Shown here: in pieces, positions 42,249 through 48,831 of the stretch
Numbering within the stretch: position 1 is the first letter of the stretch
Layout of the letters: each line of letters starts with the position of its first letter
NCBI RefSeq assembly: GCF_900107255.1
Contig: NZ_FNPH01000005.1
Span: 248,001-312,000, forward strand
Direction: 5' to 3'
Length of the DNA stretch: 64,000 nt
DNA from: Micromonospora pattaloongensis
Lineage (GTDB): Bacteria > Actinomycetota > Actinomycetes > Mycobacteriales > Micromonosporaceae
Position numbers and translations under genes: made by a program
The notes under the pieces: generated by a model
The model's database searches: none
What the model was told of the DNA's origin: nothing
Seen by the model: the letters and a program-made list of their open reading frames with translations, nothing else

Positions 42249-44087
42249 ATGCGACCACCCCGATCCCGCCTCCTGGCGCTCGCCGCCGCCGTCGCGACCG
42301 GCCTCACCGCCCTCGCCGGCGTTCCCGGCGCCGACGCCGCCCCCGACGCGCCGGCCACCCGAGCCGCCGCCGGCCCCCTCGCCGCCGCCCGACAACTGGA
42401 GAACCTCGACCGCGGACTGATCAGCGTCCGCTCCGGCGACGGCAACCTCGTCTCGTGGCGGCTGCTCGGCACCGACCCCGACGGCGCCGGCTTCCACGTC
42501 TACCGCGGCGCCACCCGGGTCACCGCCGCCCCCGTGACCGCGACGACCAACTACCTCGACGCCGGCGCCCCGGCCGGCGTCGCGTACACCGTGCGCGCCG
42601 TCGTCAACGGCGCCGAACAGCCGCCGTCGCCGGCCGCGCTGCAGTTCGCCGGCGGCTACCTCGACGTGCGGCTGCAGATCCCACCCGGCGGCACCACCCC
42701 GACCGGCGAAAGCTACAGCTACGCCGCCAACGACGCCTCCGTCGGCGACCTCGACGGCGACGGCCAACTCGAGATCGTCCTCAAGTGGGAGCCCTCCAAC
42801 GCCAAGGACAACTCCCAGTCCGGCTACACCGGCAACGTCTACCTCGACGCGTACCGGCTCAGCGGCGCCCGGCTGTGGCGTATCGACCTCGGCCGCAACA
42901 TCCGCGCCGGCGCCCACTACACCCAGTTCCAGGTCTACGACTACGACGGTGACGGCCGCGCCGAAGTCGCCGTCAAGACCGCGGACGGCACCCGCTCCGG
43001 CACCGGCCAGACCATCGGCTCCGCCTCCGCCGACCACCGCAACACCAGCGGGTACGTCCTCGCCGGCCCCGAATACCTGACCATGTTCGACGGCCGGACC
43101 GGCGGCGCGCTGGCCACCGCCGGCTACGAACCCGCCCGCGGCAGCGTCCCGTCCTGGGGAGACAGCTACGGCAACCGCGTCGACCGCTTTCTCGCCGCCA
43201 CCGCCTACCTCGACGGCGCCCGGCCCTCTCTGATCATGTCGCGCGGCTACTACACCCGTACCGTCATCGTCGCCTGGGACTTCCGCAACGGCGCCCTCAC
43301 CCGCCGCTGGACCTTCGACTCCAACTCCGCCGGCGGCCAGTACGCCGGCCAGGGCAACCACAACCTCGCCATCGCCGACGTCGACGCCGACGGCCGCGAC
43401 GAGATCGTCTTCGGCGCCATGGCGCTCGACGACAACGGCGCGCCACTGTGGAACACCCGCAACGGCCACGGCGACGCCCTGCACGTCGGCGACCTCGCCC
43501 CCGACCGCGCCGGCCTGGAGGTCTTCAAGGTCGACGAGGACGCCAGCAAGCCGTCGTCCTGGTTCGCCGACGCCCGCACCGGCCAGGTCCTCTGGTCCAC
43601 CCCCGCCTCCGGCGACAACGGACGCGGCGTCTCCGCCGACATCTGGGCCGGCAGCCCGGGCGCCGAATCCTGGTCCGCCGCGGTCGCCGGCCTGCAGGAC
43701 ACCCAGGGCCGGAACATCGGCCGCAAACCCTCGTCCACGAACTTCGTCATCTGGTGGGACGGCGACCCGCAGCGCGAACTCCTCGACGCCACCCGCATCG
43801 ACAAGTACGGCACCAGCGGCGACACCCGGCTGCTCACCGGCGCCGGCGTCGCCGCCAACAACGGCACCAAGGCCACCCCGGCGCTCTCCGGGGACCTGCT
43901 CGGCGACTGGCGGGAAGAGGTCATCTGGCGCACCACCGACTCCACCGCGCTGCGCATCTACGCCACCGGAATCCCCACCGACCGCCGGGTCCGCACCCTC
44001 CTGCACGACCCGCAGTACCGCCTCGCGCTCGCCTGGCAGAACACCGCCTACAACCAGCCGCCCCACCCCAGCTTCGCGATCCGGTGA
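42249..44087 (+). CDS. Secreted rhamnogalacturonan endolyase (PL11)
   Basis: 612 aa. A signal peptide (about 1-33, ending GADAAP) precedes an eight-bladed beta-propeller of polysaccharide lyase family 11. Typical blades are NDASVGDLDGDGQLEIVLKW, YDYDGDGRAEVAVKTADG, IADVDADGRDEIVFGAM and the end LGDWREEVIWR...TLLHDPQYRLALAWQNTAYNQPPH. Repeated DxDGD loops bind calcium. It cuts the rhamnogalacturonan I backbone of pectin by beta-elimination. No CBM is attached, unlike many homologues. The ATG at 42249 has CGGAG about 8 nt upstream. Regulation by the divergent LacI protein is likely. Confidence 0.94.
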   Translation: MRPPRSRLLALAAAVATGLTALAGVPGADAAPDAPATRAAAGPLAAARQLENLDRGLISVRSGDGNLVSWRLLGTDPDGAGFHVYRGATRVTAAPVTATTNYLDAGAPAGVAYTVRAVVNGAEQPPSPAALQFAGGYLDVRLQIPPGGTTPTGESYSYAANDASVGDLDGDGQLEIVLKWEPSNAKDNSQSGYTGNVYLDAYRLSGARLWRIDLGRNIRAGAHYTQFQVYDYDGDGRAEVAVKTADGTRSGTGQTIGSASADHRNTSGYVLAGPEYLTMFDGRTGGALATAGYEPARGSVPSWGDSYGNRVDRFLAATAYLDGARPSLIMSRGYYTRTVIVAWDFRNGALTRRWTFDSNSAGGQYAGQGNHNLAIADVDADGRDEIVFGAMALDDNGAPLWNTRNGHGDALHVGDLAPDRAGLEVFKVDEDASKPSSWFADARTGQVLWSTPASGDNGRGVSADIWAGSPGAESWSAAVAGLQDTQGRNIGRKPSSTNFVIWWDGDPQRELLDATRIDKYGTSGDTRLLTGAGVAANNGTKATPALSGDLLGDWREEVIWRTTDSTALRIYATGIPTDRRVRTLLHDPQYRLALAWQNTAYNQPPHPSFAIR

Positions 44088-44093
44088 GTACGC

Positions 44094-44128
44094 GACGGCC
44101 CCTGGCTCCGCATCGGCCAGGGGCCGTC
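44094..44128. terminator. Bidirectional hairpin terminator
   Basis: A perfect 13-bp stem (44094-44106 with 44116-44128) with a 9-nt loop lies between the convergent PL11 and LLM oxidoreductase genes. Confidence 0.88.
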
Positions 44129-44135
44129 CGCCGGC

Positions 44136-45146
44136 TCACTCCGGGCGGCGCAGCCCGCCCACCACCTTCTCCGCGACCAGCTCGAACGAACGCACCCGGT
44201 CGCCGACGTCGTACACCATCGTGGTCAGCATCAACTCGTCCGCCTTCGTGCGCGCCGACAGCTCCTCCAGCTGCCGCCGCACCGTCTCCGGCGACCCCAT
44301 GGCCTGCCCCTCACGGCGGCTCAGCACGAACTCGCGCTCCAGGTCGTTGTACGGGTACGCCGCCGCCTCCTCGGGCGACACCAGCGGCTCCGGGCGCCCC
44401 GCCCGCAGCTTCAGGAACGACAGCGCGCTCGGTCCGGCCAGCCACTCCGCGCGCTCGTCGGTCTCCGCGCAGATGACGTTCACGGCCACCATCGCGTACG
44501 GCCGCTCCAGCCACCGCGACGGCCGGAAATGCTGCCGGTACAGCGCCAGCGCCGGCAGCGTGTTCTCCGAACTGAAGTGGTGGGCGAACGAGAACGGCAG
44601 CCCAAGCATCCCGGCCAGCTGCGCGCTGAACCCGCTCGACCCCAGCAGCCAGACGCCCGGCATGTCCCCGCGCCCCGGCGTCGCGGTGATCCGCAACCGC
44701 GGGTCACCGGCGAAGTAGCCGATCAGATCCGCCAGCTCCTGCGGGAACCCCTCCGCCGACAGCCCCTCCATCGTCCGGCGCAGCGCCAGCGCCGTCGCCT
44801 GGTCCGTGCCCGGTGCGCGCCCGATCCCCAGGTCGATGCGGCCCGGATGCAGCGCCTCCAGCGTGCCGAACTGCTCGGCCACCACCAGCGGCGCGTGGTT
44901 GGGCAGCATCACCCCGCCCGAGCCGATCCGCATCGTCGCGGTGGCGGCGGCCAGGTGCGCGATCAGCACTGCCGGCGCGGACGAGGCGATGGAGGGCATG
45001 TTGTGGTGCTCGGCCACCCAGAAGCGGTGGTAGCCGAGCTGCTCGGTGCGGCGGGCCAGCTCGGTGGTGTGGCGCAGGGCCTCACCGACGGGGGCGCCGG
45101 CCGCGACCGGCGCGAGGTCGAGAACAGAGAGCGGTACGTTGATCAC
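44136..45146 (-). CDS. LLM-class flavin-dependent oxidoreductase
   Basis: 336 aa, luciferase-like TIM barrel of the MsnO8/alkanal monooxygenase-like subclass. Motifs are [50 protein letters not shown] and [11 protein letters not shown]. It uses FMN(H2) or F420; this subclass is usually called FMN-dependent. The GTG at 45144-45146 follows GGAGGAG with 3-nt spacing; a TTG four codons earlier begins inside that RBS and is rejected. The substrate is unknown. Two micro-ORFs precede it on the same strand. Confidence 0.9.
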
Positions 45147-45188
45147 ACGCTCCTCCAACCTGGTTCGGACGTGGTTTCTTCCGGCCCG

Positions 45189-45269
45189 TCACGATTTCGG
45201 CCCGACGTGCCGGTCCAGCGCGGCGACCCAGTTCCGTTTCGCCACCGACGGCGAGTTGCGCCGGTTCAT
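45189..45269 (-). CDS. Micro-ORF B upstream of the LLM oxidoreductase
   Basis: 26 codons, basic (MNRRNSPSVAKRNW...), ending 42 bp before the LLM start. Its ATG overlaps the stop of micro-ORF A by ATGA, a typical coupling signal. GC at third positions is high within it. A longer frame through the same codons (up to 45677) has low third-position GC further upstream and is less convincing. Function unknown; it might be a leader peptide or the 3' end of a decayed gene. Confidence 0.3.
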   Translation of the reverse strand: MNRRNSPSVAKRNWVAALDRHVGPKS

Positions 45270-45343
45270 CCGCCACTCGACGCCGACCAGGTCACGCCCC
45301 ACCGGCAGGGCCCCATGATGTCGCGCGACTCGGTGGTGAACAT
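45266..45343 (-). CDS. Micro-ORF A upstream of the LLM oxidoreductase
   Basis: 25 codons from ATG at 45341-45343 (MFTTESRDIMGPCRWGVTW...), containing one Cys and two Trp and ending in the ATGA overlap with micro-ORF B. A TTG start 12 codons earlier is possible. No Shine-Dalgarno is visible. TTGGAC and a TCTATC-like hexamer lie upstream at promoter spacing. I do not recognise the peptide; real expression is unproven. Confidence 0.3.
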   Translation of the reverse strand: MFTTESRDIMGPCRWGVTWSASSGG

Positions 45344-45618
45344 GTAACGCGGATAGACGCCAGACCTTGTCGCGTCCAACTAAATGCCCCGGATGGGCGG
45401 CCGCTAACTCCCGTTGCCGGTCGGTCGGCAGGATCGGCCGGTCGTGCTTTGTGCCGGTGCGGGGCGGGGGCGTAGACCGGCACCGGTGCTCCGCGTAGCT
45501 CCGCATGCCGACACGGCCCTGCTTGGCGAACCCGCGGCGCGGTGGCCGCCAATGCGGCGCGCATCGCCGCCTTGCGGGCGTCGACGAGGTTCGGTCAGGT
45601 GCCGTTGTAGAACAAAGC

Positions 45619-45705
45619 TGGTGCCGGGAGCGGGACTCGAACCCGCACGCCCTTTCGGGCAAATGCTTTTGAGGCATTCATGTCTGCCGATTCCATCATC
45701 CCGGC
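45619..45705 (-). tRNA. tRNA-Leu (anticodon CAA)
   Basis: On the minus strand the acceptor GCCGGGA pairs with TCCCGGC and is followed by A and an encoded CCA. The anticodon stem AATGC/GCATT holds loop CTCAAAA with anticodon CAA, reading UUG codons. The long variable arm (GCCC-GAAA-GGGC) and T-arm GCGGG-TTCGAGT-CCCGC are typical of class II tRNA-Leu. TTG codons are rare here, so this is a low-use isoacceptor. Confidence 0.95.
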
Positions 45706-45802
45706 GTAGCCATCCCGAAGGATGCGGCCCACTGTACCCGACTAGTCTCATGCGTAAGCATTGGTGGTGCTGGTTCAGGACAGGTGTGGGGGGTAGGGGT
45801 TC

Positions 45803-46414
45803 GTGGCCGAGACGCAGGCGGGTGCCGAGCGCAGGCGGGTGCTGATCGCCGAGGACGAGGCGTTGATCCGGCTCGACCTGGCGGAGATGCTCGCCGAGGA
45901 GGGCTACGACGTCGTGGGCGAGGCCGCCGACGGCGAGACGGCGGTGCGGCTGGCCGAGGAGCTCAAGCCGGACCTGGTGATCCTCGACATCAAGATGCCG
46001 ATCATGGACGGGCTCGCCGCCGCGGAGCGGATCGCCGGCGCCCGGATCGCCCCGGTGATCATCCTGACCGCGTTCAGTCAGCGGGACCTGGTGGAGCGGG
46101 CGCGGGCGGCGGGCGCGATGGCGTACCTGGTGAAGCCGTTCCAGAAGAGTGACCTGGTGCCGGCGATCGAGATCGCGCTGTCGCGGTACGCGGAGATCGC
46201 GACCCTGGAGTCCGAGGTCGCGGGCCTGACCGACCGGTTGGAGACCCGCAAGGTGGTGGAGCGGGCCAAGGGGGCGCTGATGACCACGTACGGCATGACC
46301 GAGCCACAGGCGTTCAAGTGGATCCAGCGGATGGCGATGGACCACCGGATGACCATGCGGGAAGTGGCCGAACGGATCTTGACGGAGACGCCCAGCCCGT
46401 CTGGCCAGGGATAA
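45803..46414 (+). CDS. pdtaR: ANTAR-type response regulator (transcription antiterminator)
   Basis: 203 aa. The receiver domain has EDE (17-19), Asp62 (LVILDIKMPI) and the KPF lysine. The C-terminal ANTAR RNA-binding domain (about 137-195) contains VVERAKGALMTTYGMTEPQAFKWIQRMAMDHRMTMREVAE. By analogy with mycobacterial PdtaR it acts in PdtaS-dependent antitermination, binding paired RNA hexaloops. The GTG follows the purine-rich GGGGGGTAGGGG. The partner kinase is not adjacent. Confidence 0.92.
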   Translation: MAETQAGAERRRVLIAEDEALIRLDLAEMLAEEGYDVVGEAADGETAVRLAEELKPDLVILDIKMPIMDGLAAAERIAGARIAPVIILTAFSQRDLVERARAAGAMAYLVKPFQKSDLVPAIEIALSRYAEIATLESEVAGLTDRLETRKVVERAKGALMTTYGMTEPQAFKWIQRMAMDHRMTMREVAERILTETPSPSGQG

Positions 46415-46618
46415 TGTTAGATGTCTGTTACAGCAACGTCATTGATAGGCGCATCGTACGTAACGGTTTAGCCAACGCCGCTGTTCAGACCTTACGGGCA
46501 CCCTCGCCGGTGGGATAACGTCCCGCCCCAAGACCGGTTCACGGTCAGCTTCGTCGCACCTGCAAGAGCCAATCGGCGGTGGGTGGCACGGGGCCTGGAC
46601 GGAGGAGGGGTTCGAGCC

Positions 46619-47779
46619 TTGAGGCAGAAGCTCGCACGCGTGCTCGGTGGCGTCGCCCTGATGGCGCTCGTCACCGGCGCCGCGGCCTGCAGCAGCGGCG
46701 GCGGCGACGACACGGCTGGTGGCGACTCTTGTGGCAGCAAGATCGCATTCTTTGGCGCGTTGACCGGCAGCTCGGCGGCGCTGGGCATCAACGAGAACAA
46801 CGGCGTGAAGCTCGCCGTCGATAAGTACAACAAGGAGAACGCCGACTGCAAGGTCGAGCTGGTGCCGCTGGACTCGCAGGGCAGCCCGGACCAGGCGCCG
46901 CAGCTGGCCCAGAAGGCGATCGACGACGAGAAGATCGTCGGCATCGTCGGCCCGGCGTACTCGGGTGAGTCCGAGGCCGCGAACCCGCTCTTCTCCGAGG
47001 CCGGGCTGGTGCACCTGACCGCGTCCGCGACCCGGCCGAGCCTCGCCGACCAGAACTGGAAGACCTTCTTCCGGGTGGTCGGCAACGACCTGAGCCAGGG
47101 GCCGGCGGCCGGACGGTACATCAAGGACGTGCTCAAGGCGGAGAAGGTCTTCGTCATCGACGACCAGTCCGCGTACGGCGCGGGCCTGGCCGACGAGGTC
47201 AAGAAGGTCCTCGGCGCCGCGGTCGCCGGCAACGACAAGGTGCAGGGCGAGGGCAAGCAGACCGACTTCTCCGCCACGGTCACCCGCGTCAAGTCCTCCG
47301 GCGCCACCGCCGTCTTCTACGGTGGCTACTACCAGGAGGCGGGCCTGATCCGCAAGCAGCTCACCGCTGCCGGGGTCAAGGCCGTGCTGGTGGCCGGCGA
47401 CGGCGTCAACGACCCCGCGTACATCAACTCCGCCGGTCAGGCCGCGGCCGAGGGCACGATCCTGACCTGCCCGTGCGCGCCGGCCACCGAGGCCCGCGGC
47501 ACGTTCGCGGCGGACTACAAGGCGCTGCACGGCACCGACCCGGGCACCTACAGCGACACCGCCTTCGACGCGGCGAACATCCTGCTCGCCGGCATCAAGG
47601 CGGGCAAGGCGACGCGTCCGGCGATGCTCGAGTTCGTGAAGGGCTACACCGGCGAGGGTGTCGCGGCGAACTACAAGTTCACCGAGACCGGCGAGCTGGA
47701 CCCGGCCGAGGTCAAGGTCTGGGCGTTCAAGGTCCAGGGCGGCAAGGTCGTGCCGGACCAGGAGATCCCGAAGGCGTGA
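46619..47779 (+). CDS. livJ: Branched-chain amino-acid ABC transporter substrate-binding lipoprotein
   Basis: 386 aa from TTG at 46619 (GGAGGAGGGG ends 8 nt upstream). The lipoprotein signal is a basic start MRQKLARVLGG, a hydrophobic core, and cysteine in TGAAAC. The mature part is a type I periplasmic-binding protein (KIAFFGALTGSSAALG; IVGPAYSGESEAANP; SATRPSLADQ; DDQSAYGAGLADEV). It captures leucine, isoleucine, valine or related ligands. It is the first gene of livJHMGF; a GC-rich hairpin then separates it from livH, which should favour excess binding protein. Confidence 0.93.
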   Translation: MRQKLARVLGGVALMALVTGAAACSSGGGDDTAGGDSCGSKIAFFGALTGSSAALGINENNGVKLAVDKYNKENADCKVELVPLDSQGSPDQAPQLAQKAIDDEKIVGIVGPAYSGESEAANPLFSEAGLVHLTASATRPSLADQNWKTFFRVVGNDLSQGPAAGRYIKDVLKAEKVFVIDDQSAYGAGLADEVKKVLGAAVAGNDKVQGEGKQTDFSATVTRVKSSGATAVFYGGYYQEAGLIRKQLTAAGVKAVLVAGDGVNDPAYINSAGQAAAEGTILTCPCAPATEARGTFAADYKALHGTDPGTYSDTAFDAANILLAGIKAGKATRPAMLEFVKGYTGEGVAANYKFTETGELDPAEVKVWAFKVQGGKVVPDQEIPKA

Positions 47780-47821
47780 CCGGCCGGCTTCCCGCTGGGC
47801 GGTAGTAGCTGTGTGATCGCG

Positions 47822-47852
47822 GGTGCGGCCGGGAGCAGCTCCCGGCCGCACC
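47822..47852 (+). terminator. Strong intra-operon hairpin between livJ and livH
   Basis: A perfect 14-bp stem (47822-47835 with 47839-47852) with a 3-nt loop lies 42 bp after livJ. It probably attenuates transcription into livH or protects the livJ mRNA 3' end. Confidence 0.75.
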
Positions 47853-47884
47853 TCCGTCTTTCCAAGCCTGATGGAGCACCCTCC

Positions 47885-48831
47885 TTGGACTTCAACGAAC
47901 TCTTCTCCAATTTCGGGGAACTCACCACGACCGGCCTGACGATCGGCGCGATCTACGCGCTCGTGGCGCTCGGCTACACGCTGGTCTACGGCGTGCTACG
48001 ACTGATCAACTTTGCGCACTCCGAGGTCTTCATCGCCGGGGCGTTCGCGGCCATCTGGACCTGGGGCGCCTTCGGCCTCAACCAGGACTCGAACGTGACC
48101 GGCTTCGGCGCGATCGTGTTCTATCTGCTGATCGCGATGCTCGTCGCCGCGCTGGCCTCGGCCGCGACGGCGACGGTGGTGGAGCGGGTGGCCTACCGGC
48201 CGCTGCGCAAGCGCAACGCGCCGCCACTGGCCTTCCTGATCACCGCGATCGGCGCCTCGATCGCCATCTCGGAGGCGTTCGGCATCTACACCCGCCGCCT
48301 GCCGGAGAGCGGGCCGCGCCTGGTGAGCCAGGATCCGCTCTTCCACGTCTTCGGCGTGCCGATCAACCCGGTGCAGCTGCTGACCATCGGCGGGGCGCTG
48401 CTGATGATGATCCTGCTGGACATGTTCATCAACCGCAGCCGCGTAGGCCGGGGCATCCGGGCCGTGGCCCAGGACCCGAACACCGCCGCGCTGATGGGCG
48501 TGAACAAGGACCGGATCATCCTGATGGTCTTCGTCGTCGGTGGGGCGATGGCGGGCGTCGCCGGTCTGCTCTACGACGTGCGGATCCAGACGCTGACGTA
48601 CAGCGTCGGCTTCCTGCTGGGGCTCAAGGCGTTCACCGCCGCGGTGCTCGGCGGCATCGGCAACCTGCGCGGCGCGCTCCTCGGCGGTCTGCTGCTGGGC
48701 CTGGTGGAGAACTACGCCTCGGCGGTGTTCGGGACGAACTGGAAGGACTTCGCCGCCTTCGCGGTGCTGGTCGTGCTGCTGATGTTCCGGCCGACCGGTC
48801 TGCTGGGTGAGTCGCTGGGGAGGGCGCGGGC

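Follow-up and report, generated by a model that had tools for sequence, protein, structure and literature searches.

Overlapping micro-ORFs behind a tRNA-Leu(CAA) gene of Micromonospora, almost certainly pieces of a decayed HTH-LAGLIDADG gene

Free-standing homing endonucleases of cellular genomes are poorly understood. SegB, one of the free-standing enzymes, is a GIY-YIG nuclease. In phages T4 and T6 it is described as a homing endonuclease linked to tRNA genes (PMC13096335). The account of mycobacterial tRNA clusters in PMC6582537 describes HNH endonuclease genes within them, thought to be phage-derived, and includes a tRNA-Leu (TAG) with a short variable loop. Among the matches listed from the open-access literature, no description of a LAGLIDADG family linked to tRNA-Leu was found. 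The locus described here points to such a family, to the apparent control of its Micromonosporaceae copies by DNA damage, and to a puzzling tRNA that occurs in two forms.

The window, a 64,000-nucleotide stretch of the Micromonospora pattaloongensis genome, contains two overlapping micro-ORFs of 25 and 26 codons on the minus strand, as the preliminary description reported. The ATGA that they share is at 45269-45266. The stop of the 26-codon ORF is separated by 42 nt from a GTG at 45146, which L006 suggests as the start of the LLM gene. The Trp/Cys-type residues ascribed to the 25-codon ORF were counted as two Trp and one Cys. The locus comprises the following features.

44136-45146, minus strand: LLM-class oxidoreductase, with nothing pointing to a functional link with the remnant (ORF reading, relatives' neighbourhoods)
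45189-45594, minus strand: frame-broken remnant of an HTH-LAGLIDADG gene, ~residues 101-250 of intact relatives (frameshift-aware alignment)
45269-45189, minus strand: 26-codon micro-ORF, MNRRNSPSVAKRNWVAALDRHVGPKS and stop (ORF reading)
45343-45266, minus strand: 25-codon micro-ORF, MFTTESRDIMGPCRWGVTWSASSGG and stop (ORF reading)
approx. 45366-45379, minus strand: internal deletion of ~15 codons with a change of frame, removing the second LAGLIDADG motif (alignment)
45595-45618, minus strand: gap between the tRNA end and the remnant, where ~100 N-terminal codons are gone, with the HTH and first LAGLIDADG motif (alignment)
45619-45705, minus strand: tRNA-Leu(CAA) with a long variable arm (tRNA scan)
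45803-46414, plus strand: response regulator, presumably PdtaR/ANTAR-like, a conserved neighbour on the strand opposite to the family gene in 45/45 intact loci

The micro-ORFs have a third-position GC content (GC3) of 0.92 each, compared with 0.77 for the 162-codon frame that covers them. The reported preference therefore stands; its value as an independent comparison does not, because the 162-codon ORF ends, in the same frame, with the 26-codon ORF. The head of the 162-codon ORF is part of the tRNA-Leu gene (45619-45705) read as protein. Positions 42500-48500 are overlapped by 62 ORFs of at least 20 aa. When pairs were counted in which both ORFs start with ATG and span 20-200 codons, the window yielded 5 ATGA-linked pairs and ten block-shuffled windows yielded 9-21. 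Such pairs are not commoner in the window than in shuffles, and the micro-ORF pair by itself is unremarkable.

A DNA search with 45150-45618 matched 18 of 61 genomes at E 1e-3, most of the matches being short. Outside the window, the strong matches over the micro-ORF stretch reached 77% in G036, 78% in G001 and 72% in G006, across 165-173 nt, and the G035 match was 66% over ~380 nt. At the same place in G036, G001 and G035, directly downstream of tRNA-Leu(CAA), lies one ORF of ~250 codons. Frameshift-aware alignment of the remnant, with three intact relatives as references, revealed an extra nucleotide near 45519-45525 and the loss of one nucleotide near 45294-45300, and all three alignments place the frame change of the internal deletion at 45368-45377. 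The sequence FLRGLFHSDG, which is the second LAGLIDADG motif in relatives, is lost from the remnant. The window copy is thus without HTH, without both LAGLIDADG motifs and out of frame. The best alignment score over 45 intact proteins was 323; when this DNA was shuffled 60 times the score never exceeded 47, and the opposite strand gave 36. A protein search of the same genome returned the remnant locus as its sole match (E 5.8e-8), and no second copy of the family gene was found. At gathering scores the tRNA was the only known RNA family at the locus, and the DNA of this stretch had no match in a phage collection.

Both micro-ORFs align, in order, with the one larger gene of the relatives, and the earlier guess of a decayed gene was right. 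The 25-codon ORF (45266-45343) is the block that begins at the Met of YPRYMF and runs past the one-nucleotide lesion into a wrong-frame tail. The 26-codon ORF (45189-45269) is the C-terminal block, from WRMNRPNSLSVARR to VAALDRHVGPKS in relatives, and its ATG encodes the Met of the conserved WRMNR. The GC3 preference along the remnant changes frame and then returns, and this switching fits a broken gene. Judged from these alignments, the micro-ORFs are almost certainly two out-of-register pieces of one pseudogene of the HTH-LAGLIDADG family. The remnant in itself is an ordinary pseudogene scrap.

High GC3 and ATGA coupling are what a true tiny gene pair, or a leader peptide controlling the LLM gene, would display, and in G001 (L006) the LLM gene does come directly after the family gene. 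Nonetheless, the preliminary suggestions to this effect are hardly credible. A tiny gene pair fails because the same DNA in relatives is the middle and end of one ~250-codon ORF, with which both frames align in order, and the leader-peptide reading founders on the same fact. An LLM homologue was located inside the 5-kb flank in 41 of the 56 named relatives (L165-L220), typically ~1.8 kb beyond the family gene, so that it is non-adjacent in most relatives checked. The minus strand has no terminator-like or promoter-like site, and neither a conserved short ORF next to a regulated gene nor a terminator-antiterminator arrangement, as expected of an attenuator, was found; the ATGA pairs, moreover, are no commoner than in shuffles. 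On the plus strand, two overlapping terminator-like hairpins lie inside the remnant at 45416-45444, and nothing is known to use them. For annotation, the pseudogene reading carries a warning that a dead gene can leave behind tidy, ATGA-coupled micro-ORFs of high GC3.

In the intact protein of ~250 aa, an N-terminal HTH precedes two LAGLIDADG domains, and both catalytic Asp residues are present. A Pfam scan of three intact proteins identified HTH families, among them HTH_23, and LAGLIDADG_3, some at scores below the curated cut-offs, together with weak others; a GIY-YIG domain was absent at E up to 1. The GDG, HSDG and CxxC motifs are kept in 45/45 intact copies, which thus have the two motifs expected of a LAGLIDADG protein, and both catalytic Asp are invariant in two further family alignments (A2, A3). 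Searches of NCBIfam and PHROGs gave weak matches alone (HTH-type, terminase, DNA-binding, endonuclease and others), none specific, and a sequence search of the PDB with P0002 gave four weak matches, none of them a nuclease. The dN/dS ratio had a median of 0.25 (range 0.10-0.63) over 526 pairs of intact copies with dS below 1, and the living copies are therefore under purifying selection.

The AlphaFold2 model of the L165 protein from Micromonospora andamanensis (44 sequences, mean pLDDT 89.1, pTM 0.75) has the N-terminal HTH followed by two LAGLIDADG domains. The predicted structure displays the paired alpha-beta-beta-alpha-beta-beta-alpha fold and matches solved homing endonucleases by both Foldseek and VIA-align. 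The TliVMA intein endonuclease aligns with a VIA Z score of 16.5 and rmsd of 2.5 over 170 aligned residues, I-Tsp061I with a Z score of 15.8 and rmsd of 2.8 over 171 (Foldseek E 2.6e-7), WhiA with a Z score of 15.3 and rmsd of 3.2 over 172, and I-DmoI with a Z score of 15.1 and rmsd of 2.7 over 159. These four are almost tied, and I-AniI and intein endonucleases are also among the best solved matches. The intact protein is probably a DNA endonuclease, and the combined proposition that the remnant belongs to this family and has nuclease ancestry is highly probable.

The near tie with WhiA chains (Z 15.3), the presence of an HTH, and purifying selection together with mainly vertical inheritance are also what would be expected if the intact family were a domesticated WhiA-like DNA-binding regulator, perhaps targeting the tRNA or its own gene, with the window holding a dead copy. 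WhiA is said to have lost the LAGLIDADG catalytic acids. The family, by contrast, keeps both acids in all 45 copies and invariantly in the alignments. WhiA also has an N-terminal LAGLIDADG part, as stated in the title of a structure entry, and a C-terminal HTH, whereas the HTH of the family is N-terminal. Nor is it evident why a regulator should remain next to tRNA-Leu genes in a variety of arrangements, and this alternative is improbable.

Family matches were found in 194 of 354 genomes of the bacterial family (protein search, E 1e-3), in 88 of 394 genomes drawn from the class (E 1e-6) and in 29 of 396 drawn from the phylum (profile, E 1e-10), with some genomes occurring in more than one draw; most matched genomes of the bacterial family carry a single match. 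Two genomes contain neighbouring pairs of family genes, at G545:C1:600544-602204 (part of it L158) and G563:C7:148275-149905. In all 52 loci of a first set, the window included, a tRNA-Leu(CAA) on the gene's own strand lies just upstream; this set amounts to 50 distinct places besides the window, L007 being the same place as L044, and includes the broken copies L068-L071. In a scan of 100 loci, 97 have tRNA-Leu(CAA) in the same orientation no more than ~250 nt upstream; in L227 and L242 the tRNA is adjacent but divergent, and L210 ends at a contig edge. The phylum-draw loci adjoin a tRNA-Leu in 18/18 cases (15 CAA and 3 TAG) in several orientations, with some of the tRNAs behind the gene. The Actinomycetota members thus adjoin a tRNA-Leu gene in all scanned loci but the one at a contig edge. 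These counts are not independent, since some species occur among both the named and the unnamed loci and two loci (L302, L304) duplicate places of the class draw.

Protein searches of the INPHARED phage collection and of a plasmid collection gave no family members. Viral contigs, several of them near copies of one another, yielded 13 distant relatives with 27-38% identity, and a tRNA gene lies close by in 10/10 of those scanned (Leu in 6, Met(CAT) in 3, Ala in 1). One viral contig (L265:4900-5900) has a family member whose single open frame contains a short tRNA-Leu(CAA), placed between the HTH and LAGLIDADG parts.

In most Micromonosporaceae copies, (y)TGTCRTAC-n4-GTTCGA-nnAT occupies about the first 30 nt behind the tRNA, and the start codon comes next. 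The PafBC P1 motif is given as tTGTCRgtg, 8 nt, TAnnnT (PMC5656591). Members of the LexA regulon carry the SOS box TCGAAC-n4-GTTCGA or a variant, that of Streptomyces venezuelae dnaE2 being TCGTACGTACGTTC (PMC9380542). The gap sequence looks like an overlay of these two damage elements, a PafBC-type P1 (TGTCR...A...T) and a LexA-type box (TCGTAC-n4-GTTCGA). Strict P1 words, from a list compiled after some loci had been seen, occur in 110/148 loci, including most of those from Micromonosporaceae, with 0.1 expected from shuffles. Putative LexA boxes with at most two mismatches occur in 98/148 loci, mainly in Micromonosporaceae, with 0.3 expected, and 87/148 loci have both. Because the strict list postdates sight of some loci, the fairer test is the set of 102 loci picked by TGTCRYAC alone, of which 102/102 have A at position 19 and T at position 23, those without GTTCGA included. 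The start codon lies 6-8 nt past the -10 T in 98 of these 102 loci, a spacing from which a leaderless mRNA is predicted. Neither element occurs in the 150 nt behind the tRNA in any of 26 gene-less relatives. In the window, TTTGTTCTAC in the gap after the tRNA may, by eye and with low confidence, be what is left of a TTGTCRTAC promoter element.

Related words stand at recA and lexA. A P1-type word (TGTCR[GT]ACCC) is present at recA in 12/12 genomes examined and a TCGTAC-n4-GTTCGG box in 10/12; the recA genes of G001 and G006 also have TGTCRTAC. At lexA itself, the exact box was found in only 4/18 loci and elsewhere just in forms with one or two mismatches; a form with at most two mismatches is present in 12/12 main lexA loci. 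Across seven genomes, TCGWACnnnnGTTCGA has 5-14 strand matches per genome and the reversed pattern 0-1. The promoter does not seem to be general, for the class-draw loci L146-L164, mostly outside Micromonosporaceae, have strict P1 in only 2/19 and the LexA box in 4/19, and several phylum-draw loci have P1-like words by a looser pattern, applied without a control. DNA-damage control of the Micromonosporaceae copies can be proposed with good confidence from these motifs. The recA matches of G035 and G001 (L255-L258) come in two pieces, and the open frames that contain them have 732 and 771 codons, a pattern that an intein would produce.

The presence of the response regulator in 45/45 intact loci fixes the locus as orthologous. 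The gene and the neighbouring regulator diverge in step (Spearman 0.83 for the 45 loci and 0.51 within the 28 Micromonospora-like loci), and since the two sets of distances agree, inheritance is mostly vertical, unlike that of a restlessly mobile element. The tRNA-Leu(CAA) of the window is identical over 85/85 aligned nt to that of a gene-bearing relative (L025). In the bacterial family, 160 of the 354 genomes had no match at E 1e-3. The regulator locus was recovered in 29 of 30 such genomes, and in 26 of these 29 the tRNA-Leu(CAA) is still there with other DNA behind it. One orthologous site is therefore occupied by the family gene in some relatives and empty in others. In a comparison of L063 with L072, both flanks are ~80% identical and the tRNA and gene head fail to align; the tRNA has a long variable arm in one and none in the other. 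L087 has a weak family match (E 3.5e-4) ~350 nt behind its tRNA-Leu(CAA). By eye, L074 keeps a promoter-like word and L092 a C-terminal scrap behind theirs. The scraps in L092, L074 and L087 suggest independent decay.

Purifying selection fits a host function equally well. The P1/LexA promoter architecture, the single match in most matched genomes and the dN/dS median of 0.25 would all be in keeping with a damage-response effector co-opted from a homing endonuclease, which might for example cut or rearrange tRNA-Leu genes or act on tRNA under stress. However, the frequent loss (160/354 genomes) and the broken copies L068-L071 indicate that the gene is dispensable, and such an effector seems unlikely.

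The orthologous site carries tRNA-Leu(CAA) in either of two forms, as called by ARAGORN length, the normal one with a long variable arm and the other armless and 74-78 nt long (L028-L053, L072, L075-L097, L146). Long and short forms numbered 29 and 22 among 51 gene-bearing loci, 7 and 12 among 19, and 35 and 44 among 80 (one with none); 29 gene-less relatives had 7 long, 19 short and 3 none. The kind of tRNA differs even between species with regulator proteins identical over the aligned part, and the short form resembles tRNAs beside some of the viral-contig relatives. Among the matches read from a DNA search of 12 short-form genomes with the long tRNA, there was no second CAA tRNA; the search recovered tRNA-Leu(TAA) in 12/12 and CAG in the five that were read, and two partial matches gave no tRNA. 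According to a published Streptomyces table, UUG can be read by UAA as well as CAA anticodons (PMC4932002), so the CAA tRNA may be dispensable.

Within the Micromonospora-like set, the kind of tRNA shows an association with the protein's HTH half (0/500 shuffles) and with its LAGLIDADG half (1/500), and a weak one with the regulator (9/500); for the LAGLIDADG half none is seen when all 45 loci are taken together (253/500). Common descent may be the source of the association, because the LAGLIDADG half and the regulator are also associated. Determination of the tRNA kind by the nuclease gene was considered and is not established: gene-less relatives have both kinds, and the regulator is weakly associated too.

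The analysis shows the sequence and predicted fold of the family, its linkage to tRNA genes, the selection on it and the promoter words. From these we infer that intact copies encode a free-standing homing endonuclease, with its cutting, target, homing and induction deduced in the same way. DNA damage would activate PafBC and/or release LexA at an intact copy, and the damage promoter would give a leaderless mRNA and from it the HTH-LAGLIDADG nuclease. The presumed target of cutting would be a tRNA-Leu locus without the family gene, and recombination repair would copy the gene and linked sequence into the break. The window would represent the final stage of such a cycle, in which the site is occupied, selection is gone and the gene has mutated to scraps. 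Homing at the tRNA locus is an evenly balanced proposition. A broader reading, an Actinomycetota-wide module in which a damage-induced LAGLIDADG nuclease, paired with one kind of tRNA-Leu gene, attacks the other kind, with the linked tRNA as the cleavage-resistant allele and the window as a burnt-out site, is speculative and on the whole doubtful. A family tied to tRNA-Leu across the phylum, selected in many species, lost repeatedly in others and apparently damage-controlled in one bacterial family would show a selfish nuclease timing its cut to active recombination repair.

The mycobacterial HNH genes resemble the family in being endonuclease genes among actinobacterial tRNA genes, and differ in nuclease type and in their position within large imported tRNA clusters, as described in PMC6582537, rather than at one conserved tRNA-Leu(CAA) locus. 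WhiA, an actinobacterial sporulation regulator, has in common with the family a LAGLIDADG fold, an HTH and a chromosomal location in actinobacteria; the family differs in domain order, kept acids, tRNA linkage, damage-type promoter and patchy retention. I-Tsp061I, I-DmoI, I-AniI and PI-SceI match the modelled family fold as monomers with two LAGLIDADG domains and the acids kept. These enzymes are intron- or intein-encoded, whereas the family gene abuts a complete tRNA gene and its product has an N-terminal HTH and a CxxC motif. In its presumed way of life the family resembles SegB, a stand-alone nuclease gene described as often lying beside tRNA genes and acting on tRNA gene regions (PMC13096335). 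SegB is, in the same account, phage-encoded and linked to many tRNA isotypes (PMC13096335), whereas the present family consists of LAGLIDADG proteins with an HTH, is mainly chromosomal and tied to tRNA-Leu, and in many members has a bacterial damage-type promoter. The family would appear to work like SegB, and it belongs to another nuclease family.
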